Shown here: positions 7,612-36,781 of the stretch, piece by piece
How positions within the stretch are numbered: the stretch's first letter is position 1
How the letters are laid out: each line of letters begins with the position of its first letter
Assembly: GCA_026392045.1 (NCBI GenBank)
Contig: JAPLCU010000126.1
Location: 1-46,705 of the forward strand
Direction of reading: 5' to 3'
Source: Armatimonadota bacterium
Lineage (GTDB): Bacteria > Armatimonadota > UBA5829
Length of the DNA stretch: 46,705 nucleotides
Translations under genes and position numbers: made by a program
Notes under the pieces: model-generated
What the model saw: the letters and a program-made list of their open reading frames with translations, nothing else
The model's database searches: none
What the model was told of the DNA's origin: nothing

Positions 7612-8478
7612 TTAAGCCACCACCAATTCAGCCAATGGCTCAATTTGGGCGCCCTGCTTGCGAATTCTATCATCCATCTTTATAGCAATCTTGCGCAGCC
7701 ACGGCCCGATTGCAGAATGGTTGTTAGAAATTGCCAGCGGCTTCTGGGTGCGAATTGCCCAACCAACTGAAGCATCATCAGGCAGGTATTCGTATCTCTG
7801 GAAACTCCTGCCCAGGAATTTCCGGCAAATATTATTCAGCCCATCGGCTACACAGGTCGCCTGGCTTGGGCTAGTGCAGCTATTTGCGATAAGTGTAATA
7901 TTTGCAGCGGGATTCTTATTAATCAGCACTTTCATCACGGCATAGGAATCTGTTATCGACGTAGGTTCGGGGCTTGTGACCACCATTACCTCGTCGGCAA
8001 ACGTCAGTAAAGATATTACGGAATCATTGATCCCCGGCGCTGTATCGATTATGACAACATCGCCATCCGATGCCGTCTGCAGCACGTGATTAATCAGCGT
8101 CACACCTATCGTGCCATCTATATTAGCCATCTCCTCCAGTCCCGATCCTGAAGACAGGAGCTTAATCCCCCCGGGCCCATCCGTCCACGCATCCCATGGG
8201 TCGATGCCTCCGCGAAGCACATCATTCAAAGAGCGCTTCGGGTTCATTCCCATCAAAACCTCCGCGTTGGACAACCCGAAATCAGCATCCACCAGGCGCA
8301 CTCGCCTCCCTGCTTTGGAGAGAAGCAAAGCGAGGTTGACCGCAATAGTGGTCTTTCCTACGCCCCCTTTGCCGCTGGTTACCGCCACCGTATAGAAATT
8401 GGGCGGGTGCGGGACAGGTCCGCTAAAATACACCTTGTCTCGCACGAGCGTGCGAAGAGTTTCAGCCTGGTCAAGCAT
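7612..8478 (-). CDS. flhG: MinD-like ATPase FlhG (FleN/YlxH), flagellar number control
   Basis: A 288-residue SIMIBI-class ATPase of the MinD/ParA type. It has the deviant Walker A GKGGVGKT (residues 36-43), a VDADFGLSN segment and the DTAPGINDSV switch region. The N-terminus begins MLDQAETLR, which matches the DQAxxLR motif by which FlhG activates the GTPase FlhF. FlhG usually limits the number or position of flagella and binds C-ring components. Its ATG overlaps the flhF stop in a TAATG junction, so the two are translationally coupled. Confidence 0.95.
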   Translation of the reverse strand: MLDQAETLRTLVRDKVYFSGPVPHPPNFYTVAVTSGKGGVGKTTIAVNLALLLSKAGRRVRLVDADFGLSNAEVLMGMNPKRSLNDVLRGGIDPWDAWTDGPGGIKLLSSGSGLEEMANIDGTIGVTLINHVLQTASDGDVVIIDTAPGINDSVISLLTFADEVMVVTSPEPTSITDSYAVMKVLINKNPAANITLIANSCTSPSQATCVADGLNNICRKFLGRSFQRYEYLPDDASVGWAIRTQKPLAISNNHSAIGPWLRKIAIKMDDRIRKQGAQIEPLAELVVA

Positions 8479-9671
8479 TAAACAACCTCCGTTATAACAT
8501 TGCGGGCAAGTTTGCCCGGCTCAGCAAAATCGATATCCTGGGGCACGTTCTGGCCTGCGGTAGTGCATGAAACAGCTAGCCCGGTCCGCAGAGGGAGGTT
8601 TACCAGGCAGCCTCTATCAGCAGACTCATCAAGCTTGGTGATGATAAGCTTGGTTGGACAAAGCACGGTAAACTTCTCAACAACTTCCCTCTGTATTTCA
8701 CCGGATAGCGAGGCCGAAACCACGAGGTGCGTGTCGGTAGGGGAAGCGGCTGCCACAAAGCTCTTGAGCTCCATCAAATGATCTTCATTACGCTGGCTGC
8801 GGCCAACTGTATCGATCAGCACAACATCCTTATCACGATGCTTTTCAACGCCCGCACTCACCTCCTCGGGAGAAAGCGCGATTTCCACGGGAATGCCTAT
8901 GATTCGCGCATAAGTCCTCAATTGATCCACAGCGCCGATTCTATAAGTATCGGCTGTAACAAGAGCAACTTTCTTCCCCTGCTCCAACGCAAACTTTGCG
9001 GCAAGTTTCGCCAGTGTGGTGGTCTTCCCCACCCCTGTGGGTCCAACTAACGCGATCACCTGCCTGCCATGACTAACAGGCGGATGAGCGAAAGCCTGCA
9101 TCTTCGCGGCAAGCGCTGAAACCAGCGTATTCGGGTCCTCTATGGAAAGCAAATCAGCCAGAATTCCACGGGCCAAATCTTCGTCCACGCCAAACCTCAT
9201 CAGCAAGGGTATCGCTGCCTCAGCAACAGGCACATCGGTTCGTGAACCCATCAGGCCATTGACCATCGCGGCGAGCTGCTTAAGCTCATTGCGGAGCTGA
9301 TCCATCTCGCAGAGAGGTTCCGCTGTGGCCACATTTCGTGTTTCAGAATAGGTCCTTGCGGCCAACGAGGACATGCCCGGGCTATAAGTATCAACTCTAT
9401 GCTCAGCGGGAGCTTCGCCCTCCCCATTTCCACGCTTCACCGCCGGCTGAAGCATATATGCCGGAGCTGAAACGGATTCCGGGGCGGAATACCCCATTGC
9501 CATCTCATCAGCTGCGGCCATAAGCTCCACTCTATCGGAGCCGCCAAGGCCCAAAAGCCCGCCGCTCTTCACACGTTTTGTATTCAGGACCACTGCGTCC
9601 TCGCCAAACTCCATTTTCGCGAGCACTAGAGCCTCTTGCATTGTTGGCGCTTCAAAAGTCTTAATTCGCAT
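8478..9671 (-). CDS. flhF: SRP-type GTPase FlhF, flagellar placement
   Basis: A 397-residue member of the SRP GTPase family. The N-terminal B domain opens MRIKTFEAPTMQEALVLAKM and is followed by a low-conservation linker, then the NG domain with G1 GPTGVGKT (residues 210-217), DTVGRS (G3) and TKLDE (G4). FlhF recruits the first basal-body parts at the site of flagellum assembly. Residues 83-90 (GEGEAPAE) are encoded by a short palindromic element that also occurs in fliK. It lies in the disordered linker, where an insertion should be tolerated. The gene is followed directly by flhG. Confidence 0.95.
   Translation of the reverse strand: MRIKTFEAPTMQEALVLAKMEFGEDAVVLNTKRVKSGGLLGLGGSDRVELMAAADEMAMGYSAPESVSAPAYMLQPAVKRGNGEGEAPAEHRVDTYSPGMSSLAARTYSETRNVATAEPLCEMDQLRNELKQLAAMVNGLMGSRTDVPVAEAAIPLLMRFGVDEDLARGILADLLSIEDPNTLVSALAAKMQAFAHPPVSHGRQVIALVGPTGVGKTTTLAKLAAKFALEQGKKVALVTADTYRIGAVDQLRTYARIIGIPVEIALSPEEVSAGVEKHRDKDVVLIDTVGRSQRNEDHLMELKSFVAAASPTDTHLVVSASLSGEIQREVVEKFTVLCPTKLIITKLDESADRGCLVNLPLRTGLAVSCTTAGQNVPQDIDFAEPGKLARNVITEVV
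9401..9425. repeat. GAGGCTCCCGCC-type palindromic element inside flhF
   Basis: The minus strand reads GGGGAGGGCGAAGCTCCCGC followed by TGAGC. It is translated in frame as GEGEAPAE in the FlhF linker. The copy at 24461-24485 inside fliK differs by only a few bases and is in the opposite orientation, so it is read there as QGSAGASPSQ. Confidence 0.75.
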
Positions 9672-11819: not shown

Positions 11820-11835
11820 TAGTTTTCCTTTGAAG

Positions 11836-12020
11836 GCTTCGGCATCAGGATACCGAAGCAACTATCTGATTGCTTCGCTCGATGCCTTTGTTCGGTCTAT
11901 GTTGAAGGCTTCGGCATCAGGATACCGAAGCAACTAAAAGTTTGTTCGGGTGGGATTTGCAATCCCGCCCGAAGGCTTCGGCATCAGGATACCGAAGCAA
12001 CCAAATCAGGATACCGAAGC
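11836..12020. repeat. cluster of RYPDAEA palindromic repeats between flhB and flhA
   Basis: Three full copies of a 24-nt palindrome (GCTTCGG, 10-nt loop, CCGAAGC) at 11836-11859, 11908-11931 and 11975-11998. A truncated copy lies at 12005-12020, where ATCAGGATACCGAAGCAACC is tandemly doubled. A different palindrome (GTTCGGGTGGGATTTGC with GCCCGAA) lies at 11944-11973. No gene was seen. The mRNA between flhB and flhA would carry several hairpins. Confidence 0.85.
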
Positions 12021-12029
12021 AACCAAGCA

Positions 12030-13884: not shown

Positions 13885-13935
13885 ACAATACTCCGAGGGA
13901 AAGCATAGCAATAACCGTGCCTGGGGGAGGAGATA

Positions 13936-14001
13936 GGTGTTGGGTGTTGGGTGTTGGGTGTTGGGTGTTTCGGGATTTGAGCGACAGCGGAAATCCCGAA
14001 A
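13936..14001. repeat. GGGTGTT heptamer tract and TTTCGGGATTT palindrome
   Basis: At least four perfect GGGTGTT units (13936-13969) run into an 11-bp inverted repeat, TTTCGGGATTT (13968-13978) and AAATCCCGAAA (13991-14001), just upstream of fliR. No gene is seen in 13885-14403. This gap also holds the arrays at 14045-14220 and 14331-14402. Confidence 0.75.
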
Positions 14002-14044
14002 CTGATGAGATTTAGAAGTTAGCATGCTGCTCATGCTTCGAGAG

Positions 14045-14220
14045 CCTCAGCATGGCGAGGCGGGGGCTCAGCATGGCGAGGCAGAGCCTCAGCATGGCGA
14101 GGCGGGGGCTCAGCATGGCGAGGCGGGGGCTCAGCATGGCGAGGCGGAGGCTCAGCATGGCGAGGCGGGGGCTCAGCATGGCGAGGCGGGAGCTCAGCAT
14201 GGCGAGGCGGGAGCTCAGGA
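14045..14220. repeat. eight-copy 21-bp tandem repeat between fliQ and fliR
   Basis: Eight copies of a 21-bp unit with core CTCAGCATGGCGAGGC and a variable GGGGG/AGAG/GGAG tail. The period is a multiple of three, so both strands stay open and give repetitive peptides. There is no SD or start supporting translation, so I treat it as non-coding. A single related core is found at 4209-4222. Confidence 0.85.
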
Positions 14221-14330
14221 ATAATAATAGTTCCGGGTGATTCGGGATTTCCGGGTTGGGTTGAATACTTTGATTATAGCTTGATAAATTGTGCTCCAAC
14301 CCTCAAATCCCGAAATACCGACTCCCCTCC

Positions 14331-14402
14331 GGGGCTCTCCGCTCTCCACTCTCCACTCTCCACTCTCCGCTTTCCGCTTTCCGCTTTCCACTTTCCGCTA
14401 CC
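14331..14402. repeat. CTCTCCACT/CTTTCCGC polypyrimidine tandem repeat
   Basis: About ten 7-nt pyrimidine-rich units (CTCTCCA, CTTTCCG) with strong strand asymmetry. The tract ends directly after the fliQ stop codon. A closely related tract is translated inside fliK at 24839-24877. Confidence 0.8.
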
Positions 14403-14673: not shown

Positions 14674-14953
14674 TTGATTTACTCCAGTCTCTAAGGCGTA
14701 TTATTCTCGATGTGCGATAGGCTTCGGCATCAGGATACCGAAGCAACTATTCTCGATGTGCGATGGGCTTCGGCATCAGGATACCGAAGCAACTATTCTC
14801 GATGTGCGATAGGCTTCGGCATCAGGATACCGAAGCAACTATATCTCGATGTGCGATGGGCTTCGGCATCAGGATACCGAAGCAACTACTCTCGATGTGC
14901 GATGGGCTTCGGCATCAGGATACCGAAGCAACTAATTTGATTTACTCCAGTCT
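14672..14953. repeat. five-copy palindromic array between fliP and fliQ, flanked by a 19-bp direct repeat
   Basis: Five palindromes (GCTTCGG, 10-nt loop, CCGAAGC) start at 14721, 14767, 14813, 14860 and 14906, a 46-47-nt period. Each is preceded by a CTCGATGTGCGATRG leader. The block is flanked by an exact 19-bp direct repeat, ATTTGATTTACTCCAGTCT, at 14672-14690 and 14935-14953. On the minus strand this is the sequence joining the fliP stop to the fliQ SD and start. No gene is seen in the gap. Confidence 0.9.
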
Positions 14954-18277: not shown

Positions 18278-19077
18278 GCTGCTTTTCTAACTCCATAATC
18301 GGCTTTTGAATCGTCTGCGACGGAGACTCTCAAGCTCGGCGGCAAGTATGCCATCATTCTTGTCTCTACGATTCTTGGACTGTCACCGGCCTGTATGGAC
18401 ATAACCCCTTCGATGATCATTTCGTAGATTATGACCTCTTCGGCGGTCTTGGATTTTAGTTTGCCGGCGATCGGCAGGTAGATCAGGTTGGCAAACGCAA
18501 CGCCATACAGCGTGGCAATGAACGCCGCCGCAATGGCATGTCCCATTTTTCCCGGCTCGCTTAGTTTAGAAAGCATGCTGATCAAACCCATAACGGTCCC
18601 GATAATACCCAGGGTGGGAGAAAATCCTCCCAATGTGGTGAAAACCGTCTCACCGATCTTGTGGCGCTCTTGCATGGCCACGATCTCTGTCTCAAGGATC
18701 TCACGCACCATAACGCTGGGTGTGCCGTCCACAACCAGTTCGAGACCCTTGCGCAAAAACAAGTTTTCTATCTTAGCGGCGGTCACTTCGAGAGCAAGCA
18801 CACCATCTCGACGCGCCACTCTTGCATACCCAACCACCTTTTCTATAACGTCCTGCGCATCTATATCCTTATTGATAAGCGCATTTCTAAAAATTGAGGA
18901 CAGCGAAAGCAGCGTTTTCATACTCGATCCAACAACAGTCGCGCCAATCGTACCAAACACAACCAAGACGAACGCAGGCGCGTTTATCAGGTCGTTTATG
19001 GTTCCACCCTCAAGGCCAAGGCTTAGAAACAACGCTCCCCAGGCAAGAAGAAGCCCTAAAACGGTTGCTATGTCCAT
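18274..19077 (-). CDS. motA: flagellar motor stator protein MotA
   Basis: 267 residues with four membrane helices. The conserved third-helix motif FSPTLGIIGTVMGLISML contains the functionally important proline. The cytoplasmic loop between helices 2 and 3 (about residues 65-140) carries the charged residues that contact FliG. Length is normal. The start overlaps the end of flbD by ten bases, and the stop overlaps motB. Confidence 0.96.
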   Translation of the reverse strand: MDIATVLGLLLAWGALFLSLGLEGGTINDLINAPAFVLVVFGTIGATVVGSSMKTLLSLSSIFRNALINKDIDAQDVIEKVVGYARVARRDGVLALEVTAAKIENLFLRKGLELVVDGTPSVMVREILETEIVAMQERHKIGETVFTTLGGFSPTLGIIGTVMGLISMLSKLSEPGKMGHAIAAAFIATLYGVAFANLIYLPIAGKLKSKTAEEVIIYEMIIEGVMSIQAGDSPRIVETRMMAYLPPSLRVSVADDSKADYGVRKAA

Positions 19078-19322
19078 TTTTCAATATTCCTTACTTCAGC
19101 TCTGAGGTAGTTGTTGCCTCTTGCGCCAAACATGCGCTGGTGCTTTGCGATTAGCCGTCGATATGCAACAACCTTGCCGATTACATCCTCAACCGACTCC
19201 TTCACCATCACTTTCTTGCCTGTTACGAGCGAAATAATGGTATCCGGGGTCTTTTCGATACACTCGATAAGATCCGCATTCACCACCAGATCCGAATTAT
19301 TGTAAAGTGTAAGCTTAATCAT
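19068..19322 (-). CDS. flbD: flagellar protein FlbD
   Basis: 84 residues. The N-terminal 60 match the small FlbD family (MIKLTLYNNSDLVVNADLIE followed by IEKTPDTIISLVTGKKVMVK). These proteins sit between flgE and motA in many Firmicutes and deep-branching bacteria, and their molecular role is unclear. AAGGA precedes the ATG. It is separated from flgE by 361 nt of repeats. Confidence 0.88.
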   Translation of the reverse strand: MIKLTLYNNSDLVVNADLIECIEKTPDTIISLVTGKKVMVKESVEDVIGKVVAYRRLIAKHQRMFGARGNNYLRAEVRNIEKWT

Positions 19323-19349
19323 TTATGCTTTCCTTGTTCTCGAGGTCGG

Positions 19350-19501
19350 TCCGGGAACGGATTTCCCGGACGATCATGTCCCGGACGATCATGTCCCGGA
19401 CGATCATGTCCGGGCGATCATGTCCCGGACGATCATGTCCGGGCGATCATGTCCCGGACGATCATGTCCGGGCGATCATGTCCCGGACGATCATGTCCGG
19501 G
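19350..19501. repeat. TCCGGGAA palindrome plus nine-copy CGATCATGTCC tandem repeat
   Basis: A 21-nt palindrome (TCCGGGAACGG then ATTTCCCGGA) at 19350-19370 is followed by nine copies of CGATCATGTCC alternating with CGGA or GGG (about 14-15-nt period). The palindrome is the same family as the copies in fliK, fliI and next to flgD. The block lies between flgE and flbD. At 19505-19529 CTCGCCCT/AGGGCGAG can form an 8-bp stem. Confidence 0.85.
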
Positions 19502-19563
19502 CGCCTCGCCCTCTATCTTGCAGGGCGAGACCGAGATCCCGCCCCGTTCGTTTTGGTTAGAGA

Positions 19564-19652
19564 TGCTGAATCAAGTTCAGCATGACATCAAGTTCAGCAT
19601 GACATCAAGTTCAGCATGACACGCGTCTGTCATCCCGAACTTGATTCGGGAT
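19564..19652. repeat. TCAAGTTCAGCATGAC triple repeat and inverted TCATCCCGAACTTGA copy
   Basis: Three direct copies of ATCAAGTTCAGCATGAC are followed by GTCATCCCGAACTTGATTC, a related inverted form. A diverged copy (TGAATCAAGTTCGGAATGAC) lies at about 96-115. It completes the 361-nt gene-free gap between flgE and flbD. Confidence 0.7.
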
Positions 19653-19683
19653 CAACAGGACGTTTCGCGCAAGCTCTAACTTA

Positions 19684-22098
19684 TTAGCGCTTGAGACTAA
19701 CCAGTTCCTGGAGAATCTCGTCAGATGTTGTTATGATCTTTGAAGTTGCCTGAAAACCGCGCTGCGCAACGATCATAGCTGCAAACTCGGTAGCAAGGTC
19801 CACATTCGAAGATTCAAGGAAACCAGCGTTGATCATACCTAAGCCGCCATCACCAGGCTTACCAATCTTAGCTGCTCCTGAGTTGGGGCTCTCATTGACT
19901 ACGTTGTTGCCAACTTTGGTCACACCCGCAGGGTTGTTAAACTGCGCCAGAGCCATCTGACCGAGCGGACGGTTGGAACCGTTGGTGAAAACGCCAGTGA
20001 TCGAACCATCTCGACCTATGGTGTATGATTCGAGCGTTCCCAACTCCAAACCATCCTGGTAAGTCAGGTCAACGGTGGTTGCGCCATTCAACTGGCTAAT
20101 GCTTCCCGTATTAATGCTTCCGATAAGCGGCTGGGTGGAACCGTTCGGGGTCGCCCAGACCAGCGAGTAAGGAATATTCGGCAACTGGCTATAGCCAAGG
20201 TTGTTGAAAGTGATCTGTCCGGGAGGCGGCAGCGAAGCAGCAGCAGCATCCGGGCACACCACCTCATAATCCCAAGAAGCCGGGTTGGCAGTCTTCATGA
20301 AGATGACCTTCATCTCATGAGTGATACCCAGTGAATCATATACATCGAATCTAATCGGAACGGGATCGCCAGGGGCTGAACCGTCCGGAGCCATAGTGGC
20401 GGGGAATGCAGCAATCGTTGCTGCGTCATCCAGCTTCAGATCCTCCGTGTCTATTGTCATATTCATTGGCTGCACTGAACCGTTTGAAGTATTCAACACC
20501 AAAGACATAGGAATCCCCGCCAAATCGCTAACGCCGCCTGTAAACGTGAAATTCGCATCAGTCGGAATTGAAGCCGGGGTTGCGTCAGGGCAAGCTATGG
20601 TATAGCGCCATGTGTCAGCTATCGGCTGCTTGGTGAACGTTACGGTCACAGGATGTGCATATCCAAGAGAATCATATATGTTCTTGGTGATGGTGACAGG
20701 CGCGCCGGGGGCGTAGCCATCTATGTCATCTGCAGTTACAACTGCGTTTGTAGAGACACCTTCAGTCATTACGCTCGTGTCTAGCGCTGCGGTGATGGAA
20801 TCTACACCCAAGTTCCAGGTCAGATTCAATGGTATGCTGGGGAGGTTGCTTACTCCGGAGGCGGGGTCAAATGTCACGCTTCCTGCCGGAGGAAGAGAAG
20901 CGACATCGGCGCCCGTCGCCGTAAGGACGTAGTTCCATGTATTCGCAACAGTATCTTTGGTAAATGTTGCAGTCACATCATGTGCAACGCCAGCTTGGTC
21001 GTATACAGTAAAGTTCACGCTGCGAATTGAGCCAGCGCTGAAGTCGTTGCCATCTTTGTTAGCTGCAGTTACGCTTGCGTTTGTAGAGATACCTTCAGTC
21101 ATTACACTCGTATCTATCGCCGCAGTAATGGAGTCCGCACCCGCGTTCCAGGTCAGATTCATCGGTATGCTGAGAGTACCGTTGCTTGCACCTGTTATGG
21201 CGTCAAATGTCACGCTTCCTGCCGGAGGAAGAGAAGCGACATCCACACCCGTTCCTGTAAGTGCATACGTCCATGTATTTGGCGCAGCATCCTTGGTAAA
21301 TGTTGCTTTTACGTCATGTGAAACGCCCGCCTGGTCATAGACAATAAAGTCCACGTCGTGAGTTGCACCAACAACAGCGCCAGAGTCGAAACTGCCGGTG
21401 ATCCTGGCAAATGTGGTTCCCTTAGCAGCTAGAGCATTTCTATCAAAACTGCCTGTGATCCTGGCAAATGTGGTTCCCTCTGGACCTGTTGTTTCATCCA
21501 TATTGCCCGCCAGTATGATCGATTTGGTCTGTGCAGGACCTACGGACGAAGCATCCAGGTTCCCTGCAACGTCAACCTTTGTGGTTGGTCGTGCGACCGA
21601 AAGCCCACCGACCGGAATCCTCATGGAGGATTGTGCATTGATCGGGACTGATGTGTCAACAGTGCCATTTGCCAAGTCGGCGGCCCACCCTAGAACTCTC
21701 AATCCTGACCCAGACTGCACAAGATTAAACTCGGCGTCCAAAACGAAGCTGCCGTCTCTGGTGTAAGCGACCCTATCGCCCCCGCCCAAAGCGAAGAAGC
21801 CGTTGCCTTCGACGGCAAGGTCGGTATTGCGTCCGGTGGCCTGCATGGAACCCTGAGCTGTGCTGATATCAATGGAACCAAGGATAACGCCCAAGCCGAC
21901 CTGAGTGGAGTTGCTTCCGCCCATTCCTGCGCTCGGCGCCGTGGCTCCTTTAATAGTCTGACTGAGCATGTCTTTGAAGTTTGCACGCCCACCTTTATAT
22001 GCAGTTGTGTTGATGTTTGCGATATTGTTACCTATGACATCGAGGGCGCCCTTGAATGCCTTCATGCCCGCGATGCCGCTATACATTGCTTGTATCAA
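19684..22098 (-). CDS. flgE: flagellar hook protein FlgE, enlarged by four tandem middle-domain copies
   Basis: An 804-residue hook protein, about twice the usual 400-450. The N-terminus has the flagellar rod/hook motif ALDVIGNNIANINTTAYKGG, and the C-terminus ends in the usual VDLATEFAAMIVAQRGFQA ... EILQELV helix. Between them a module built around VYDxxGxxHxVxxTFTK ... TW.Y ... SLPPAGSVTF ... IPxNLTWN occurs at about 250-345, 360-455, 470-555 and 582-668. The first two copies are the most alike. A 12-residue phrase GTTFARITGSFD is also doubled at 208-219 and 227-238. The start is a TTG at 22098 with AGGAGG eight bases upstream; the first ATG (codon 5) is badly spaced. It builds the hook outside the cell. 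Confidence 0.95.
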   Translation of the reverse strand: MIQAMYSGIAGMKAFKGALDVIGNNIANINTTAYKGGRANFKDMLSQTIKGATAPSAGMGGSNSTQVGLGVILGSIDISTAQGSMQATGRNTDLAVEGNGFFALGGGDRVAYTRDGSFVLDAEFNLVQSGSGLRVLGWAADLANGTVDTSVPINAQSSMRIPVGGLSVARPTTKVDVAGNLDASSVGPAQTKSIILAGNMDETTGPEGTTFARITGSFDRNALAAKGTTFARITGSFDSGAVVGATHDVDFIVYDQAGVSHDVKATFTKDAAPNTWTYALTGTGVDVASLPPAGSVTFDAITGASNGTLSIPMNLTWNAGADSITAAIDTSVMTEGISTNASVTAANKDGNDFSAGSIRSVNFTVYDQAGVAHDVTATFTKDTVANTWNYVLTATGADVASLPPAGSVTFDPASGVSNLPSIPLNLTWNLGVDSITAALDTSVMTEGVSTNAVVTADDIDGYAPGAPVTITKNIYDSLGYAHPVTVTFTKQPIADTWRYTIACPDATPASIPTDANFTFTGGVSDLAGIPMSLVLNTSNGSVQPMNMTIDTEDLKLDDAATIAAFPATMAPDGSAPGDPVPIRFDVYDSLGITHEMKVIFMKTANPASWDYEVVCPDAAAASLPPPGQITFNNLGYSQLPNIPYSLVWATPNGSTQPLIGSINTGSISQLNGATTVDLTYQDGLELGTLESYTIGRDGSITGVFTNGSNRPLGQMALAQFNNPAGVTKVGNNVVNESPNSGAAKIGKPGDGGLGMINAGFLESSNVDLATEFAAMIVAQRGFQATSKIITTSDEILQELVSLKR

Positions 22099-22190
22099 TT
22101 TAATGACCTCCTATTATAACCAACCGCCTCAATCATTCAGCGGTTATGCACTTCCTCAACGAGGTCCAGTGCGTGTTTAGTAGTTAATGC

Positions 22191-22574
22191 TTAGCCTATT
22201 ACGGCGCTCTCTATATTTGTGAAAACCGAGTCCTTTGCACTAGCCGAATCCACGGCCGTAATCACAATTCGGTTCCTGGCGCTTACAACCAAAGCCAGAT
22301 CATCAAGCAGCACAAGCGACTTGTCAGCGCCTTTCTGCTGTATTTTGTCCACTGCCGCTCCCAGCCTGGCCTGTTCATTTTCACCGAATGTAACGTTTCT
22401 CTCTTCCAGTCGCTTTTGTGCGTGCGCTGAGAAAGTTACCCCGGCCTGCTTCATTATCTCTGTCTGTAGCTGGCTGCCGAAAGATCCATCTCCACCAACT
22501 TTACTCGGCGGCTGCGGAGGGCTTCCGACTCTTCCAATACCAACTAGTTCTGTGCTCAGTCTAACCGGAGACAA
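22191..22574 (-). CDS. flagellar operon protein, TIGR02530-like
   Basis: About 127 residues. The C-terminal part reads FSAHAQKRLEERNVTF ... LGAAVDKIQQKGADKSLVLL, then LALVVSARNRIVITAVD. This is the pattern of the small flagellar operon protein family TIGR02530 found between flgD and flgE in Firmicutes and others; the function is not established. The N-terminus contains a Pro/Gly-rich linker. I place the start at the TTG at 22574 because AAAGGAG lies eight bases upstream. A GTG at 22613 would include the SD inside the gene. Its position between flgD and flgE is the canonical one. Confidence 0.8.
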   Translation of the reverse strand: MSPVRLSTELVGIGRVGSPPQPPSKVGGDGSFGSQLQTEIMKQAGVTFSAHAQKRLEERNVTFGENEQARLGAAVDKIQQKGADKSLVLLDDLALVVSARNRIVITAVDSASAKDSVFTNIESAVIG

Positions 22575-22647
22575 TATAATATCTCCTTTCTGTATATTTG
22601 AGCTACAATCCACCCCGATTAAATCGGGGTTATGCTCGGCCGATCAT

Positions 22648-22720
22648 CCGGGAAATCCGTTCCCGGACCTTATGTAGGTCCCGATCGTCCGGGAAATCCG
22701 TTCCCGGACCTTATGTAGGT
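22648..22720. repeat. two TCCGGGAA palindromes with a duplicated flgD 3' end
   Basis: Two copies of a 21-nt palindrome (TCCGGGAAATCC then GTTCCCGGA) at 22648-22668 and 22689-22709, 41 nt apart. The minus-strand sequence GACCTACATAAGG, which contains the flgD stop codon, is present once at the true end of flgD and once between the palindromes. Confidence 0.85.
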
Positions 22721-23541
22721 CTGTATACTCTGATCACATTACTCATATCGACCAAAGTGTTGTTAACCATAAGCTGCGGCATGCCGGCTGTGTAATTTAC
22801 GCCCTTAACCCATCCCTTGGCTATTGTGCCAGGTTTGGAGATGTCGCGATATTCGATGTTTTTGCCGTTCATGGCTTCAGCCATGGCTCTAGTGTCCGCA
22901 TCTTCAACTCGGTTTTCACTGCCGCTTACTCCAAGAACATTGCCGAGATCCACTGAAGCGCCGTTAATGCTGAGCTTGGGCCAACCGTCTACGAATGAGA
23001 CTCCGGCCACTTTGCCGTTTTTGACCGCCTCGGTCGTGGGATCGATATAATTGACCGTCTGATCGATCATGGAGATGGCTTGGGCGGATGTTCTGCCTTG
23101 GCCCACCGAGACATAACTCGGATAGACTTTTGTGATCGATGCAAGATCGACGCTGGATGTGCCGACCTTCAGCTTGGCCACGCCATTCTCAAAGGAAACA
23201 TTCTCCACTCTGCCGGTGAGAATTGCATCAGGATTGGACGGATCTTTGTAATCCACCCAGTTACCCGTCAGCGAATATGCCTGCGTAGCGCTCGAAGTTG
23301 TTGAGAATGTGGTTCCAAAGTCCTTGAAGTTCTGGTTCAATTGCTGCATCTGCTGCAGCGAAGTGAACTGTGCCAACTGAGCGATGGAATCTTTGTTGTC
23401 CATCGGGCTCAATGGATCCTGATTCTGCATTTCCACAATCAGCAGTTTCAGGAATGAGTCCTGATCCATCGTTTTTGCTTTTACATTTACTACTGAAGTA
23501 TCAGTAGTAGGTGACGTTGATGTTATTGCGTTCGTGCTCAT
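22711..23541 (-). CDS. flgD: hook-capping/assembly protein FlgD with three C-terminal modules
   Basis: 276 residues. The N-terminal part has the FlgD signature DQDSFLKLLIVEMQNQDPLS ... MDNKDSIAQLAQFTSLQQMQ (about 26-65), needed to cap the growing hook. The C-terminal part consists of three related modules at about 94-140, 161-206 and 227-273. Each has the form VxYxDPxx...GxVxxVxFxxGxxKLxV...VDLxxVxxV. FlgD of other bacteria usually has one Tudor/FnIII-type region. AGGAGG four bases before the ATG at 23541 also overlaps the fliK stop codon. The 3' end of the gene is duplicated in the adjacent palindromic repeats. Confidence 0.93.
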   Translation of the reverse strand: MSTNAITSTSPTTDTSVVNVKAKTMDQDSFLKLLIVEMQNQDPLSPMDNKDSIAQLAQFTSLQQMQQLNQNFKDFGTTFSTTSSATQAYSLTGNWVDYKDPSNPDAILTGRVENVSFENGVAKLKVGTSSVDLASITKVYPSYVSVGQGRTSAQAISMIDQTVNYIDPTTEAVKNGKVAGVSFVDGWPKLSINGASVDLGNVLGVSGSENRVEDADTRAMAEAMNGKNIEYRDISKPGTIAKGWVKGVNYTAGMPQLMVNNTLVDMSNVIRVYRPT

Positions 23542-23549
23542 GTTGCCTC

Positions 23550-25418
23550 CTAAGCCAGCCAACTATAGCCTACGGAACCGGCTGCGCCATCCAGAGCCTG
23601 TCGAAGGACGCCTGCCGCGTTTATCATGGCCGGATGAACGGTCATGTTTTGCGGGTTGTCTGAATGCTGCTGGCGCGTTTTGTTGCGTTGTTGATATGCA
23701 GTATCTGAAGTATTGTCCTGCATGAGTAAGTCAAATGACGTCTCTGAAGTCACGGATACCTGATCCATTTTCAAACCGGCGTCTGCGAGTGCGTTTGTCA
23801 AAGCGGGTATGTGGGCTTGAAGAAGTCCGCGTACCACTTCGCTGCTCGCGTTTATCTGAGTTGTCAGACCGTTTGCGGTCTGTGTGATTTGCAGGCGAAT
23901 TTGCCCCAATTCGGGCGGATTGAGCTTGACCGTAAGGTCGCTCTGACCTTGGAACTGGCGAAGCTTAACCTCGCGCACCAACTGATCGATGATCTTCGTC
24001 TGAAGCTCGGTGTTTGATGATGTCGAAGCCTCAGGCTTTTGCGCTGCATCCAGGCCTTTGACCATGTTATCAAACGACGATCTCACAGGCATGGCGATGG
24101 CTGCGTTCTGGGTGTCGCCGGTAGACGACGCCGTATTTGCGGTCTGGTTTTCATTGGTTGCCGATGAAACAGATGCTTCCGGCACACCAATTTGAGATGC
24201 GATATCTCCGGTGATAGCCTTGATCACCTGCGGCGAGAATGTCATATTCCCGGAAATGTCCAGAGGCGCTTTTCCCGAAATAATCGGGACAGGGGTCTCC
24301 GCCTTTGCGGGCATAGCTCCTGGTATGGGTACGTTTGTCTCGACATTCGCACCTTGAGCAAATGGACGCTCGGACTCATGGCGTTTGCCTGCTAAGAGCA
24401 GCATACCATTCTTGGTCTGATTTTCTGAACTTGTGTTCTGTCCAGGGTTCTTCTCAGACTGGGAGGGCGAGGCTCCCGCCGAGCCTTGTTCAGTTGTCTT
24501 AGCGCTGAGCCCGAAAAACGTGGTTTTCGTATTCGAGCTTTCGGTCGGCTTGGCATCGGACTTATCTTTCGCCTTAGCATCGATTATGGGAAGATTTACC
24601 GTTGTTGCGGCATTTTGCCCCATAGTGTCAACTGCCTCCATTTCGGAAACAGCCTGCGCCTGAGCGTTAGTCGTTGAAACCTGCTCGACCTTGGGCGCCT
24701 GTGCGTTGACTGCCGTCTGCTCGCTCGATCGTCCGGGAAATCCGTCCCCGGACGCAGTTTTGATGGATCGTCCGGGAAATCCGTCCCCGGACGCGGTTTT
24801 GACCGGAGTCGCAGTTTGGGTATCGGTCTGCACTTCCGGGCTCTCCGCTTTCCACTTTCCACTTTCCACTCCCCGCTCTATGGCAGGAACCGTGCTTTGG
24901 GTATCGGTCTGAACAACGACTTGATCAGGCGCGGTCTGCGTGAGTTCGGCTGAAGCCATGACGTCTGCAGCTGGTTGCTGCATTGGAATCGCAGCTTGAG
25001 CGTTTGGCGTCTGTACGGTTGCTTCGACAGTTGCCGCCTGAGCATTCTTGCTGTTTTCAGCAGTCTGTTCAGGCTTGGGCTGAGGGTCGATCTCTGCCTT
25101 GGCCTCAGCTTTTGGATCAGCCTTTGGATCAGTTTGAACGGCATCAGCTTTAGGCTCTTCTGTAGCTTCAACCTGCGGCTCGTCCTTTAGTTTGGCTTTG
25201 GAATCGTCCTTGGCTATCACTTTGGGTTCGGGACGATCCTGCACTTTCTCGGGCTGATCTTCTTTTGCTTCGAGTGTGTGATACTTTTGGTCCTTTATCT
25301 TGTTATCGAGCACGGAACCGAACTTGGGGGCTCCTGAATCATGCATTTGAACCCCAGAAGCGGCGCTGCGCTCAGTCACAATCTCAAAAGGACTGGAAAC
25401 GGTAGTTGCGTTTATCAT
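23550..25418 (-). CDS. fliK: flagellar hook-length control protein FliK with repeat-encoded insertions
   Basis: 622 residues. The C-terminal core is a normal FliK domain with LTVKLNPPELGQIRLQI (495-511), which signals to FlhB to switch export specificity. The N-terminal two thirds are low-complexity, rich in Ala, Pro, Gln, Lys and Glu, as expected for a molecular ruler. Three short repeat families are translated in frame inside this ruler: VESGKWKAES at 184-193 (polypyrimidine tract), KTASGDGFPGRS twice at 207-231 (TCCGGGAA palindrome), and QGSAGASPSQ at 311-320 (GAGGCTCCC palindrome). AGGAGGTGA precedes the ATG. It lies between the lytic transglycosylase gene and flgD. Confidence 0.93.
   Translation of the reverse strand: MINATTVSSPFEIVTERSAASGVQMHDSGAPKFGSVLDNKIKDQKYHTLEAKEDQPEKVQDRPEPKVIAKDDSKAKLKDEPQVEATEEPKADAVQTDPKADPKAEAKAEIDPQPKPEQTAENSKNAQAATVEATVQTPNAQAAIPMQQPAADVMASAELTQTAPDQVVVQTDTQSTVPAIERGVESGKWKAESPEVQTDTQTATPVKTASGDGFPGRSIKTASGDGFPGRSSEQTAVNAQAPKVEQVSTTNAQAQAVSEMEAVDTMGQNAATTVNLPIIDAKAKDKSDAKPTESSNTKTTFFGLSAKTTEQGSAGASPSQSEKNPGQNTSSENQTKNGMLLLAGKRHESERPFAQGANVETNVPIPGAMPAKAETPVPIISGKAPLDISGNMTFSPQVIKAITGDIASQIGVPEASVSSATNENQTANTASSTGDTQNAAIAMPVRSSFDNMVKGLDAAQKPEASTSSNTELQTKIIDQLVREVKLRQFQGQSDLTVKLNPPELGQIRLQITQTANGLTTQINASSEVVRGLLQAHIPALTNALADAGLKMDQVSVTSETSFDLLMQDNTSDTAYQQRNKTRQQHSDNPQNMTVHPAMINAAGVLRQALDGAAGSVGYSWLA
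24461..24485. repeat. GAGGCTCCCGCC palindromic element inside fliK
   Basis: The plus strand reads GGGAGGGCGAGGCTCCCGCC followed by GAGCC, with GGCTCCCGCC able to fold back on GGGAGGGCGAGGC. It is read in frame on the minus strand as part of QGSAGASPSQ. The second copy is in flhF (9401-9425). Confidence 0.75.
24732..24791. repeat. two in-frame TCCGGGAA palindromes inside fliK
   Basis: Two copies (24732-24752, 24771-24791) 39 nt apart, an exact multiple of three. They encode a doubled KTASGDGFPGRS-type peptide. The same family is found in fliI, next to flgD and between flgE and flbD. Confidence 0.85.
24839..24877. repeat. in-frame polypyrimidine tract inside fliK
   Basis: GGGCTCTCCGC followed by repeated TTTCCACT units, closely matching the non-coding tract at 14331-14402. 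Here it is translated as VESGKWKAESPE. Confidence 0.75.
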
Positions 25419-25503
25419 ATATTCACCTCCTCTCTTGTCAGGATGGGAGGGTGGCGATCAGAGATCACCACCCAACATTCCAGGGAGATCATCTCCCAAC
25501 ATG

Positions 25504-25719
25504 GCTTCGGCATCAGGATACCGAAGCAACAAATCTCCCAACATGGCTTCGGCATCAGGATACCGAAGCAACAAATCTCCCAACATGACTTCGGCATCAG
25601 GATACCGAAGCAACAAATCTCCCAACATGACTTCGGCATCAGGATACCGAAGCAACAACATGGCTTCGGCATCAGGATACCGAAGCAACAACATGGCTTC
25701 GGCATCAGGATACCGAAGC
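25504..25719. repeat. six-copy RYPDAEA palindromic array between lytic transglycosylase gene and fliK
   Basis: Palindromes (GCTTCGG or ACTTCGG, 10-nt loop, CCGAAGC) start at 25504, 25546, 25588, 25630, 25664 and 25696. The first four have a 42-nt period with the spacer AACAAATCTCCCAACATG; the last two are spaced 32-34 nt with a shortened spacer AACAACATG. Copies 3 and 4 share a G-to-A change, which suggests tandem copying. The 317-nt gap between the two genes holds no coding sequence. Confidence 0.9.
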
Positions 25720-25735
25720 AACAAACATACAAATA

Positions 25736-26326
25736 TTATTCACTCGCGAATTCGTCGCGATATGAAAGCACTCTGGCTATGTAGTTCTGAGTTTCTCTGA
25801 ATGGCGGAACTCCATCGTATTTCTTGACGCTCCCGGGGCCTGCGTTGTATGCCGCGAGGGCTTTATTGACATCGCCTCCGAATGCATCTAACTGCCGCTT
25901 GAGATACTTTGCACCGCCGTCGATGTTCTGTGCGGGGTCGAATGGGTCCGAGACACCAAGTGACGCCGCAGTGCCGGGCATTAGCTGCATGAGACCCAGG
26001 GCGCCTGCGCCGGACATTGTATTTGCCCTGAAACCGCTTTCGGCTCGAATTACAGCCTTAAGCAGTTCCGGCTGCAGGCCGTATTTTTGGGCGGCGTCAT
26101 TGATCAGGCCGTCGTAGCGCGATACGGTCTCCACCGACCCTTTCACTTTGGTCTGCACCTGCTTGATGAGGTAATCCGGGAAATACGGCTTTACCTCGCC
26201 AGGTTCCTTGAGACTGGCGGCTTCATAGTGCGGGGCGACGTTTACTATGCCCCCCACCCTCGCGCTTTTGAAGTGGGATTTTATCTCTTCAATGCGTGCT
26301 ATGGCGCCTGTTACGCTTTCAAGCAT
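25736..26326 (-). CDS. lytic transglycosylase (SLT domain), probable flagellar peptidoglycan hydrolase
   Basis: 196 residues. The C-terminal 120 form a Slt-type lysozyme-like domain: catalytic Glu96 in AVIRAESGF, then SGAGALGLMQLMPGTAASLG, the NIDGGAKYLKRQLDAFGGD stretch and ALAAYNAGPGSV. It cuts glycan strands of peptidoglycan, and here most likely opens the wall for the rod, as FlgJ does in gamma-proteobacteria. The N-terminal 70 residues are helical and may bind rod proteins. No signal peptide is seen, so export through the flagellar type III system is plausible (inference). The ATG overlaps the fliJ stop (TAATG). Confidence 0.88.
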   Translation of the reverse strand: MLESVTGAIARIEEIKSHFKSARVGGIVNVAPHYEAASLKEPGEVKPYFPDYLIKQVQTKVKGSVETVSRYDGLINDAAQKYGLQPELLKAVIRAESGFRANTMSGAGALGLMQLMPGTAASLGVSDPFDPAQNIDGGAKYLKRQLDAFGGDVNKALAAYNAGPGSVKKYDGVPPFRETQNYIARVLSYRDEFASE

Positions 26327-26769
26327 TACATTCCCCTCGCATATCTCATGGATGCCATTTCATCCAGTTGGTTCTGTTCTTCGCGTGCCACTGCGAGCAT
26401 ATACTCGCGCTCTTGTTTGTCTTTTAGAGCTTCAAGAACTTGCTTTTCCTGCATAGCCTTGACCACTTCAACGCGCTTTTCCTCGACTTTTTGGCTTATC
26501 GCTTCGATTGTCATTTCCTGCACCCGGATATCATCTCGAGTGGCCTTTGCGTAATCATCATGTAACACAACTCTGCTAACGGGTGCGTTCTCACGCAGCG
26601 CCTGTTCCATTGAGCGGCAAGATTCATCCAGTCGCTTTTCGAGGCTGTGCAGGTTTTCTATTTCCTGAACCTCGGTGCGCCTTATCTCGCCCAACTCCCA
26701 GAGAAGTTGCTCTTCTTTGGCTTTGCGCCGATCTAATAGGGTCTGTAATCTAAACTTAAAGCGCTTCAT
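26326..26769 (-). CDS. fliJ: flagellar export protein FliJ
   Basis: About 147 residues, almost entirely a coiled coil. The N-terminus MKRFKFRLQTLLDRRKAKEE is typical for FliJ, the stalk-like partner of the ATPase FliI and of FlhA. The ATG at 26769 is preferred over a TTG nine bases upstream that lacks an SD. It overlaps the fliI 3' end by 14 bases. Sequence conservation in this family is low, so the call rests on the N-terminal pattern, coiled coil, size and position directly after fliI. Confidence 0.88.
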   Translation of the reverse strand: MKRFKFRLQTLLDRRKAKEEQLLWELGEIRRTEVQEIENLHSLEKRLDESCRSMEQALRENAPVSRVVLHDDYAKATRDDIRVQEMTIEAISQKVEEKRVEVVKAMQEKQVLEALKDKQEREYMLAVAREEQNQLDEMASMRYARGM

Positions 26770-28120
26770 TATCACCAAACAGATCAGTCAGGGCAGCGCT
26801 GGTGGTGTTGAAATCCGAGCGCTCATCCACAGACTGTTTCAAAAATGCGTTCGCGTCGTCTATCTTGCTCAGAGCAAAGTCTATGCTCGGGTTGCTGCCG
26901 TGCGCGTAAGCTCCGATGTTTATAAGGTCTTCGCTGGACTTATAGGTCGCCAACACTTCACGCAGCATACCTGCACTGCGCCTGTGATCTTTGGTGGTGA
27001 CATCGACCATAAGTCGGCTCACGCTCGATAGGATGTCGATTGCCGGGTAATGGTTTCGAGCGGCGAGGTCTCGGCTGAGAACGATGTGGCCATCGAGAAT
27101 ACCTCTGACGGTATCGGCGACAGGCTCGTTCATGTCGTCGCCCTCCACCAAAACCGTGTAAAGTCCGGTGATGGAGCCTTTCTCGGATGTGCCCGCTCTC
27201 TCGAGCAACTGCGGCAAAACTGCGAATACCGACGGTGTGTAGCCGCGTGTGGTCGGAGGTTCGCCTGATGCAAGCCCGATCTCGCGCTGCGCCCAGGCGA
27301 CGCGGGTTACGGAGTCCATCATCAGAATGACATCCTTGCCGCAGTCTCTGAAATACTCGGCGATGCCCGTGGCTACCTGCGCGCCTCTGAGCCTTACGAC
27401 AGGCACCTGATCTGAAGTTGCAACTATAACAACGCTTCTCGCAAGACCTTCGGGGCCTAAGTCCTTTTCGAGGAAGTCACGTACCTCGCGGCCTCGTTCT
27501 CCGATCAGCGCGATTACGTTGACATCCGCCGAGGTGTTTCTCGCGATCATACCCATCAGAATGCTTTTCCCGACGCCGCTGCCGGAGAAAATACCAATTC
27601 TTTGTCCTTTGCCGATAGTCAGCAGGCCATCGATTGCGCGTACACCGAATGAAAGCGCATCATGGATTCTTTGCCTTTCAAGAGGATGCGGAGGGGTAGC
27701 GGCAGCTTTGATTGATCGTCCGGGGAATCTGTCCCCGGACGGACGGTTCAAAATGGGTCCGAGACCATCAAGCGGTCTTCCAAGGCCATCCAGAACTCGT
27801 CCCAACAAAGCCTGTCCAACCGGAACTCTCAGCGAAGAACCCTGCGCAACCACCGGGCTCCCAGGCCTGACATCATTGACCATGCTGTATGGCATGAGGA
27901 GGGTTCTCTTCTCACGGAATCCGACCACCTCAGCAAGCACGGGCGGCTCGGTGCGGCTGTTGTGAATCTCGCAGATCTCGCCGATGCCGCATTCCGGGCC
28001 GCAAGACTCGACAAGCACGCCGATAACCTGCGCAACTCTTCCGTTGGCCCGCACGGTATCGGTCTTTCGAATAGCTTCCCGATACTTCTCCAGATCAAGC
28101 GCTGGTCTCGTTGCAATCAT
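26756..28120 (-). CDS. fliI: flagellar export ATPase FliI with a repeat-encoded insertion
   Basis: About 454 residues, related to the F1-ATPase beta subunit; it energises flagellar protein export. Motifs from the ATG at 28120: GRVLDGLGRPLDGLGPILNR, Walker A GSGVGKS (180-186), the Glu-containing IGERGREVRDFLE and Walker B ILMMDSVTRVAWAQREIGLA. Between GPILNRP and PPHPLERQRI lies SGDRFPGRSIKAA (about 128-140), which is the translation of a palindromic repeat (27719-27739). That loop varies in length among FliI proteins, so function is probably kept. The start overlaps fliH by 26 bases, with GGAG upstream. Confidence 0.96.
   Translation of the reverse strand: MIATRPALDLEKYREAIRKTDTVRANGRVAQVIGVLVESCGPECGIGEICEIHNSRTEPPVLAEVVGFREKRTLLMPYSMVNDVRPGSPVVAQGSSLRVPVGQALLGRVLDGLGRPLDGLGPILNRPSGDRFPGRSIKAAATPPHPLERQRIHDALSFGVRAIDGLLTIGKGQRIGIFSGSGVGKSILMGMIARNTSADVNVIALIGERGREVRDFLEKDLGPEGLARSVVIVATSDQVPVVRLRGAQVATGIAEYFRDCGKDVILMMDSVTRVAWAQREIGLASGEPPTTRGYTPSVFAVLPQLLERAGTSEKGSITGLYTVLVEGDDMNEPVADTVRGILDGHIVLSRDLAARNHYPAIDILSSVSRLMVDVTTKDHRRSAGMLREVLATYKSSEDLINIGAYAHGSNPSIDFALSKIDDANAFLKQSVDERSDFNTTSAALTDLFGDNEAL
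27719..27739. repeat. TCCGGGGAA palindromic element inside fliI
   Basis: TCCGGGGAATC then TGTCCCCGGA, an almost perfect 21-nt palindrome translated in frame as GDRFPGRS. The flanking residues are also alike in FliI (SIKAA) and FliK (SIKTA), so the mobile unit may be longer than the palindrome. Confidence 0.85.
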
Positions 28121-28799
28121 TCTCAAAACTCTCCGTGAACGTTTGCTCTACTTTTTCTAACTGTGTTTCAATGGTTGCGTCGAAATCTCCTACTGCAGTC
28201 TCTATTATGCAACCGCCGGGAGATACTCGTCTATCATCAATAATATTTATTGTCGTAACGCCCTCAGCGACGCTGAGTAGTTCGTCGCGGGCCGCTCTGA
28301 CACTTTCCAGCTCGCTGGGATTCACCCGCACCCGCACCTCATGGCTCTCTTTTACACGACGCAGACAATGTCTGATCACGCGCGTAATGACTTTCGGGTT
28401 CGTGCGAGCTTCATGTCTGATTACTTTTTCGACAGTATAGCGGCAAAGCTTTAGTATTTCTGGCTCCAATGATTCAAAAAAAGCTGCCGTCTCCGCGTCG
28501 AATGCGTTCATATCGGATTCCAGCCTCGCAATCAGCGACTCAACCAAAGCCATCGCTTCAGTCATACCAGCCTGGCGGCCTTCCTTACGGGCTTCTTCAA
28601 GCAATGCTTCTGCCTCGCTTCTAGCCGTATGCACGATAATCTCCGCTTCAGCCTTAGCTTTATTTACTACAGAAGCTGCGATTTCATTATCAGTCGGCTC
28701 GCGCTTAAGCCTTCCCGATGCTGAGTCGCATTGGAACACGCGGAAACTGACCGGACAGCTTGGAACCGGAATTACATCGGCTTTGATGAGCTTACCCAA
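28095..28799 (-). CDS. fliH: flagellar export regulator FliH
   Basis: About 234 residues. The middle is a long Ala/Glu-rich helix (VVNKAKAEAEIIVHTARSEA and onward), and the C-terminal domain has the FliH/V-ATPase E-subunit pattern CRYTVEKVIRHEARTNPKVI ... VRVRVNPSELESVRAARDEL ... RRVSPGGCIIETAVGDFDAT. FliH tethers FliI to the C-ring and regulates it. I choose the TTG at 28799 because GGAGG lies six bases upstream. It overlaps the fliG end by eight bases, so translation is probably coupled. Confidence 0.92.
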   Translation of the reverse strand: MGKLIKADVIPVPSCPVSFRVFQCDSASGRLKREPTDNEIAASVVNKAKAEAEIIVHTARSEAEALLEEARKEGRQAGMTEAMALVESLIARLESDMNAFDAETAAFFESLEPEILKLCRYTVEKVIRHEARTNPKVITRVIRHCLRRVKESHEVRVRVNPSELESVRAARDELLSVAEGVTTINIIDDRRVSPGGCIIETAVGDFDATIETQLEKVEQTFTESFENDCNETSA

Positions 28800-32679: not shown

Positions 32680-32737
32680 AGAATCCCCCCTTTCTGCCGC
32701 AGCGCTTATTAGCAATTTGCGTACCAGGGGCATAATA

Positions 32738-32828
32738 GTTTTGAGGTTTGAGTTATGAGTTTTGAGTTAGGGAAGGAAGAGATTAGTTTTGAGGTTTGAG
32801 GTTTGAGGTTTGAGTTATGAGTTGGGGA
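32738..32828. repeat. GTTTGAG tandem tracts between mreD and flgB
   Basis: Two blocks of 7-8-nt units (GGTTTGA, GTTTTGA, GTTATGA) interrupted by GGGAAGGAAGAGA. They fill most of the 164-nt gap between mreD and flgB. No promoter is convincing inside the tract. Confidence 0.65.
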
Positions 32829-32843
32829 AGGGATTGTTGAAAG

Positions 32844-35471: not shown

Positions 35472-35553
35472 TCCCGATTAAATCGGGACGCCCGAACATC
35501 GACTTATGACTTATGACTTATGACTTATGACTTATGACTTATGACTTATGACT
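35472..35553. repeat. TCCCGATT palindrome and GACTTAT heptamer tract
   Basis: A 17-nt palindrome (TCCCGATT, A, AATCGGGA) at 35472-35488 is followed by seven perfect GACTTAT units (35501-35549). The tract lies directly after the stop of the zinc-ribbon gene, in its 294-nt gap to mreB. Confidence 0.75.
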
Positions 35554-35554
35554 C

Positions 35555-36781
35555 CTACAGCTCGTCCTGATGCGACAAGTTCTGCCTGACCTCGTTAGCC
35601 TCGGGAGAATGAGGAGCGATTTCTATAATCTTGCCCCACACTTGCTCCGCCTTATCCATCTCATCGCGCTCGTTATACATATAGCCCAGGGAAAGAAGAG
35701 CCGTGACGTCGTTGGGGTCTATCTCAAGAGCTTTGTAATACTCAAGAAACGCCAGATCGTCCTGATCGTTTTCATCGTAAGCCACAGCCAGGTTGCAGCG
35801 ATAGGAACCGTTGTTTGGATCGAGCTTAACCGCTGCAGCAAACTCGCGGATGGCTCCTGCAAGGTCATCTGCCTCAAAGAGAGCGCGTCCGCTGGAATTA
35901 TGCTGAGCAGCTTCGTCTCCTCTAGCCGCGTGTGTTGGGGCTGGTTGGGTCTCTGATGGCTCCTCCTGCCCTCTCTGAGCCTCCCTGACACTATCCAAAC
36001 GGTTCATTGCAGCCCGTGAAGTTCGGGGATCAAACTCACCCGAACCCAGAAGACGACCGCAGTTGCCGCAGTGTCGCCAATTCGGCTGAATGGTTGAGCC
36101 GCAAGCGAGGCAGCTCTGGTGCTGCGAGGACCCGCACTCGGTGCAATAACTCATCCATCTCTGAACCCGAGCGCCACATTGGGCGCACGCAGGGGTGAAC
36201 TGAGCTAACTCCTTGCCGCAGACTATGCAAAAGGTCGATCCAACCGGCGATGACCCGCTGCACTCGGCGCACACCTCCCTCAACTGCTCTCCGCAATTCC
36301 CGCAGAAAACCGCTCGATCATCCACCTTGGAGCCACATTTTGAACACAAACCGTTGCCAGCTGCAATAACAGCGCCAGGCGCTGATTTGGAAACCGAGGC
36401 AGATTTCTCAGCCACAAGCTGCGATATTGCATCAGCGGCCGATTTGAACAAGCTCACATCATAAGACGGAAAATAGACCCTTGCGGTGTCTTTTTCGGAG
36501 ACAGGCTTAGCAAGCTGCAACTCGATATAGCCGCCGGTAGCAGAAGAAATATCCTCCACGCCCTTAATGTCCGCCAAATTGTAAGCATACGCGGCACATC
36601 CGGGGGTCGCCCCGGAATCGCAATCTCTGATAATGAGAACACGCCTATCGGTGGCGGCGATGGCCTCGCCAAAACTGCCCGGCAGTGAGAGCAACACCGT
36701 TTCACCGGCAACAACCTGCCTGTTCAGCTCGTTCTGTAGAGCCATGGACAGCTCTTTTTTCATATCTGCATTTATATTCAA
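35555..36781 (-). CDS. zinc-ribbon and TPR protein with an N-terminal PH-like domain
   Basis: 408 residues from the TTG at 36781, chosen because AAGGAG lies six bases upstream. The N-terminal 120 residues contain VLLSLPGSFGEAIAATDRRV, a pattern of bacterial PH-like domains. Then eight CxxC pairs (about 146-243) make four zinc ribbons. After a disordered linker come about three tetratricopeptide repeats (AGAIREFAAAVKLDPNNGSY ... AFLEYYKALEIDPNDVTALL ... KAEQVWGKIIEIAPHSPEAN). No signal peptide is seen. It looks like a cytoplasmic scaffold or regulatory protein, and its partner is unknown. It lies upstream of mreB in the same direction but is separated by repeats. Confidence 0.75.
   Translation of the reverse strand: MNINADMKKELSMALQNELNRQVVAGETVLLSLPGSFGEAIAATDRRVLIIRDCDSGATPGCAAYAYNLADIKGVEDISSATGGYIELQLAKPVSEKDTARVYFPSYDVSLFKSAADAISQLVAEKSASVSKSAPGAVIAAGNGLCSKCGSKVDDRAVFCGNCGEQLREVCAECSGSSPVGSTFCIVCGKELAQFTPACAQCGARVQRWMSYCTECGSSQHQSCLACGSTIQPNWRHCGNCGRLLGSGEFDPRTSRAAMNRLDSVREAQRGQEEPSETQPAPTHAARGDEAAQHNSSGRALFEADDLAGAIREFAAAVKLDPNNGSYRCNLAVAYDENDQDDLAFLEYYKALEIDPNDVTALLSLGYMYNERDEMDKAEQVWGKIIEIAPHSPEANEVRQNLSHQDEL

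Follow-up and report, generated by a model that had tools for sequence, protein, structure and literature searches.

Three unrelated genomic repeat families read in frame within a predicted fliK gene of an Armatimonadota bacterium

In Rickettsia, numerous protein genes with no relation to one another carry, in frame, the palindromic dispersed repeats known as RPEs (PMC10969869; PMC3733652). REPs of the GTAG/CGTC-tagged kind are, according to PMC3733652, palindromes of 20-40 bp present in tens to hundreds of copies, often paired or grouped, known from several phyla and in some cases intragenic. Tandem heptanucleotide repeats of the TAACTGA type occur in Beggiatoaceae and cyanobacteria (PMC4679880). 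For the hook-length control protein FliK, Salmonella variants of 363-785 residues gave hooks of 42-135 nm, a linear relationship with 0.2 nm per inserted residue (PMC6126814); changes in the FliK linker affect switching too (PMC6972891).

The fliK gene described here lies in a 46,705-nt stretch (the window) of an Armatimonadota genome and carries segments of three repeat families, termed F1, F2 and F3. Like RPEs, the F1 palindromes add peptides at tolerated places of unrelated proteins. Unlike RPEs, they are 28 nt long, against about 150 bp (PMC10969869), their sequence is unrelated, and their host is a free-swimming member of the Armatimonadota with an ordinary-sized genome, in which three unrelated repeat types share one gene. 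F1 resembles intragenic REPs in palindrome size, in copy number, in occurring in pairs and in having some copies inside ORFs, but it has no unpaired tag of the GTAG/CGTC kind: its CGTC pairs with GACG in the stem, and the unpaired 5′ bases are GAT. F3, like the TAACTGA repeats, consists of tandem 7-nt units found at numerous genomic sites; its unit differs, however, and since every frame of that unit is free of stop codons, F3 is also predicted to be translated where it lies inside genes. As in the engineered Salmonella variants (PMC6126814), the insertions leave the C-terminal switch domain of FliK intact, but those variants were made and measured, whereas the insertions here are natural, amount to only about 45 residues and are known from sequence. 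In-frame insertion of palindromes is already familiar from RPEs and intragenic REPs, and what is new here is the families, the co-occurrence of three of them in one ruler gene and, probably, the phylum. Armatimonadota are not among the phyla named for intragenic REPs in the available part of PMC3733652, titles and abstracts on palindromic repeats in Armatimonadetes offered nothing relevant, and a literature search found no paper on a fliK with tandem repeats.

The fliK gene and the repeats in its window

The gene (23550-25418, minus strand) is an uninterrupted ORF of 622 codons. Its product is identified as FliK by a C-terminal match to Pfam PF02120 Flg_hook (E 2.4e-17), the only domain that Pfam recognises in it, and by its position in a flagellar operon with the order fliI, fliJ, a lytic transglycosylase gene, fliK, flgD and flgE; syntenic FliK homologues stand at the equivalent place in relatives, those named at the locus being Armatimonadota metagenome assemblies, with UBA5829 nearest. 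The conserved Flg_hook or switch domain (23739-23960, minus strand; residues 487-560) is free of repeats and is the sole confidently folded part of the structural model. All of the F1, F2 and F3 segments lie N-terminal to it, in residues 183-320, and within one open frame.

The initial annotation had placed here a pyrimidine tract, a doubled KTASGDGFPGRS peptide and a palindrome reading QGSAGASPSQ, and had assigned them to a ruler domain. The tract is present as a heptanucleotide array of the TTTCCAC type, F3 (24840-24877, minus strand), of which 24840-24872 reads GVESGKWKAES. The doubled peptide is likewise there, with a period of exactly 39 nt: the first F1 unit (24762-24800, minus strand), a 28-nt palindrome at 24766-24793 with its flank, reads KTASGDGFPGRSI, and the second (24723-24761, minus strand; palindrome at 24727-24754) is a tandem copy reading KTASGDGFPGRSS. 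The QGSAGASPSQ segment is an exact match to the F2 family (24459-24488, minus strand; core 24465-24485), but this G+C-rich repeat folds no better than its shuffles (z -0.2) and is not a strong hairpin. The details of the earlier description hold, with the exception that F1, the TCCGGGAA element, alone is strongly palindromic; F3 consists of tandem heptamers and is no palindrome. The label of ruler domain is approximate, as the segment lies N-terminal to the only recognised domain, in a region predicted to be disordered by a model built on a shallow alignment. That unrelated genomic repeats lie in frame in FliK is well supported, and parts of the predicted protein are, as read from the DNA, translated repeat sequence.

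Further sites of F1, F2-like and F3 repeats in the window, asserted from the start, were found in both coding and non-coding DNA. An F1 copy in fliI (gene 26756-28126; copy 27714-27741, minus strand) reads PSGDRFPGRSI and makes a net insertion of 8 residues, and an F2-like copy in flhF (gene 8478-9671; copy 9400-9420, minus strand) reads GEGEAPAEH and lies in the linker that precedes the GTPase domain. The other sites, listed without a strand, are an intergenic F1 pair with a period of 41 nt downstream of flgD (22642-22710), an intergenic F1 copy downstream of flgE (19348-19375) with partial units arrayed after it (19348-19511 in all), and a non-coding F3 heptamer array (14322-14399).

The window holds other repeats as well. 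A fourth family, F4 (GGCTTCGGCATCAGGATACCGAAGC), forms six tandem copies at 25490-25725, between fliK and the lytic transglycosylase gene, and further arrays at 11822-12026 and 14707-14935. Arrays of other heptanucleotides (GAGTTTT, GGGTGTT and TATGACT units) lie at 33-76, 1766-1808, 13933-13975, 32732-32829 and 35504-35560, and this genome seems to favour heptamers as tandem units; an array at 14004-14255 comprises about eight copies of a 21-nt unit, CTCAGCATGGCGAGGCGGGGG. Separately, the FlgE hook protein (19684-22098, minus strand) has 804 residues, against 416-450 in most relatives and 562 in one (G022). The extra 390 or so residues lie mid-protein and contain internally duplicated segments (DNA repeats 78-82% identical, 20702-21370), with four FlgE_D2 matches; the hook subunit itself is nearly doubled.

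The families across the genome and among relatives

Searches of the whole source genome (3.55 Mb, 206 contigs), allowing at most three mismatches and using the reversed patterns as controls, returned 81 copies of F1 (GATCGTCCGGGAAATCYGTTCCCGGACG type), 123 matches to F2 (GGGCGAGGCTCCCGCCGAGCC) and 155 overlapping matches to F3 (CTTTCCA heptamers). The fliK segments thus do match genomic repeats, and chance is excluded for all three families because the reversed pattern gave 0 matches in each search. The surroundings of the copies were read in 427 kb of stretches around them, and short ORFs lying over repeats were left out of the gene count.

F1 is a genuine hairpin whose stem carries compensatory changes. 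It folds with a 10-bp stem (z -2.39 in fliK, -4.1 in fliI); across 25 distinct variants the ten-pair stem is 96% paired, with 18 two-sided cells, and four stem pairs change on both sides, for example from C-G to G-C at the fifth pair. The covariation score was reached by none of 500 shuffles. The copies have a sharp 5′ boundary at GATC, the sequence before it being random, and many of the intergenic ones extend rightward into CACGTTT and a second palindrome. At 28 nt, in 81 copies and with a covarying stem, F1 is a high-copy palindrome within the 20-40 bp range of REPs. F2 and F3, in contrast, do not form strong hairpins, and Rfam gave no match to positions 19000-28500 of the window.

Only 12 of the 81 F1 copies fall in coding-like ORFs of at least 300 residues. 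If coding density resembles that of the window, where greedy ORF coverage is 0.91 (an upper estimate), this is far below random placement, and F1 insertions into genes are presumably mostly lost. The tandem period of F1 is 39 nt in coding DNA (fliK) and 35, 36, 38, 41, 43 or 48 nt in non-coding arrays. All six frames of F1, F2 and F3 are open. This may help copies to survive within genes, but as evidence it is weak, since 14-19%, 85% and 5% of their respective shuffles are open too. Two further properties of F1 were considered and are not claimed. A preferred reading frame, SG(D/N)xF(P/A)(G/R)RS, appears in 5 of 11 independent long-ORF copies and is weak after correction for six frames; target-site duplications of at least 6 nt flank 2 of the 51 isolated copies, where the null gave a mean of 0.5 and a maximum of 3.

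Among 30 relatives F1 has 0-4 matches, and 0-1 in the nearest genus. This near-absence makes the F1 insertions lineage-specific, and the family would have expanded after the lineage split from the others sampled, among which there is no second strain or species of the source genus. F2 is patchy: one relative (G007) has 91 matches, its congeners have at most 15, and G030, a relative at phylum level only, has 108. Many of the 108 are letter-identical although most closer relatives have none; one reading we offer is horizontal spread or a shared mover. F3 occurs in most members of a neighbouring genus (g3) and also in G015.

In-frame insertions in other genes

The cleanest cases of insertion come from genes whose homologues have no insert. 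In FliI, encoded three genes upstream of fliK, the alignment shows the F1 peptide as a clean 8-residue gap in 18 of 18 relatives, and in the structural model it occupies a low-confidence loop (residues 128-135) between a better-modelled barrel and the ATPase core. In IspDF (contig C74), a 20-residue insert made of one partial and one full F1 is absent from 12 of 12 relatives, and, in keeping with an insert, the region matched to Pfam IspD exceeds the corresponding profile stretch by 21 residues. F1 thus shares with RPEs in-frame insertion into genes with insert-free homologues. Insertion is seen directly only in these two proteins; in FliK it has to be inferred, because the N-terminal part cannot be aligned reliably with relatives.

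Other genes carry the same repeats. CheA (G000 contig C112:25500-27843, minus strand) has a duplicated domain with no counterpart in relatives, and F2 and F4 peptides lie exactly at the junction. A permease ORF of the MacB/FtsX type (contig C146) contains GVESGKWKAES, identical to the FliK peptide. In FlhF, the linker that holds F2 in the window has, in four relatives (L317, L318, L320 and L329), peptides derived from heptanucleotide repeats, such as ESGEQRVESGEWRAE. We also observed an 888-residue ORF (G000 contig C147:15441-18107) that has two glycosyltransferase units linked by a translated stretch of five F4 repeats (WLASASASGYRSNQ) plus F2; in-frame reading of repeat DNA may have fused genes here.

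FliK length and the origin of its segments

Before the conserved L.PP.LG motif, FliK has 499 residues here and 353-478 in 14 relatives, which makes its N-terminal part the longest among the 15 proteins; after the motif, length is constant at 117-127 residues in all complete genes. The structural model, built on a shallow alignment, is folded only at about residues 466-560, and the N-terminal region is low-complexity and probably disordered. The repeats account for about 43-48 residues. With some 45 subtracted, the N-terminal part comes to about 454 residues, within the range of the relatives, and hence the repeats account for this FliK being the longest, though not for the general variability; the spread of roughly 145 residues among relatives is mostly not due to F1-F3. 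Repeat gain or loss could plausibly change hook length. If this FliK measures as that of Salmonella does, the repeat residues would add about 9 nm of hook, and under the same rule one 39-nt unit gained or lost would correspond to about 2.6 nm.

These figures invite the thought that the repeats are a selected tuning device, in which slippage of 39-nt or 7-nt units acts as a heritable, adaptive switch of hook length. The linear rule in Salmonella (PMC6126814), the suitability of tandem units for slippage and the exceptional N-terminal length all speak for it. However, the presence of the same repeats in FliI, IspDF, CheA and FlhF, which are unrelated genes, implies that fliK is not targeted, and a change of a single heptamer breaks the frame, which only three at once would preserve. 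We consider such a device very improbable. Still less credible is that the peptides are native and conserved, and resemble genomic repeats through biased composition only. FliK N-terminal regions are indeed low-complexity and poorly conserved, but the DNA matches are exact or near-exact at 81-155 places with none for the controls, the peptides are absent from the FliK of every relative compared, and the clean insertions in FliI and IspDF contradict it. Misjoining of repeats inside fliK, conceivable for a repeat-rich metagenome assembly in 206 contigs, is equally hard to credit, as the elements (21-40 nt; doublet 78 nt) are shorter than usual reads, random misjoins would not be expected to keep fliK, fliI and flhF open, and the order from fliI to fliK matches that of relatives.

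The reading that we prefer, at a probability of roughly 0.88, is that the three segments come from dispersed repeats of the genome, copied into fliK with its frame left intact, and are tolerated in its N-terminal region. It draws on the genome-wide distribution of the families, the conserved hairpin of F1 and the equivalent in-frame copies in genes with insert-free relatives. F1 would be a REP-like hairpin, F2 a G+C-rich dispersed repeat and F3 a slippage-prone heptanucleotide array. Most likely F1 and F2 spread by some copying process; F1 may have landed once in fliK and then been duplicated with 11 nt of flank as the 39-nt, 13-codon unit, and the F3 segment may have arisen when a heptamer array was transferred or slipped. 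Selection would have purged events that broke the frame. Those in fliK may owe their survival to the nature of the N-terminal part, a low-complexity and probably disordered spacer of freely varying length, and to the open state of all six frames of the repeats.

No transposase was linked to F1-F3: the genome has five Y1_Tnp genes, and none has an F1, F2 or F3 copy within about 1.5 kb. A RAYT was considered as the mover of these families, and no such flanking copies were found. A separate observation concerns a Y1/RAYT-type transposase ORF of 182 residues (L287, G000 contig C107), which is bracketed by inverted F4 repeats, one of them overlapping its first codons, an arrangement like that of a RAYT with its own REPs.

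On a much more speculative and rather doubtful view, a lineage-specific burst of unrelated, translatable repeat families would constantly supply the proteome with in-frame linker peptides, lengthening the FliK ruler, opening loops in FliI and IspDF and joining domains and genes (the CheA duplication and the two-glycosyltransferase fusion), with hook length drifting along. For the insertion of dispersed repeats into fliK itself, the significance is that in-frame, translated repeat insertion, best known in Rickettsia and a small number of REP-rich genomes, gains another phylum and several unrelated families together, and that genes of the flagellum and of the isoprenoid pathway offer clean comparisons of proteins with and without an insert. 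FliK is, moreover, rare among the targets of such insertions in that the physical effect per inserted residue has been measured, in Salmonella, so that the cost of an insertion would be predictable.
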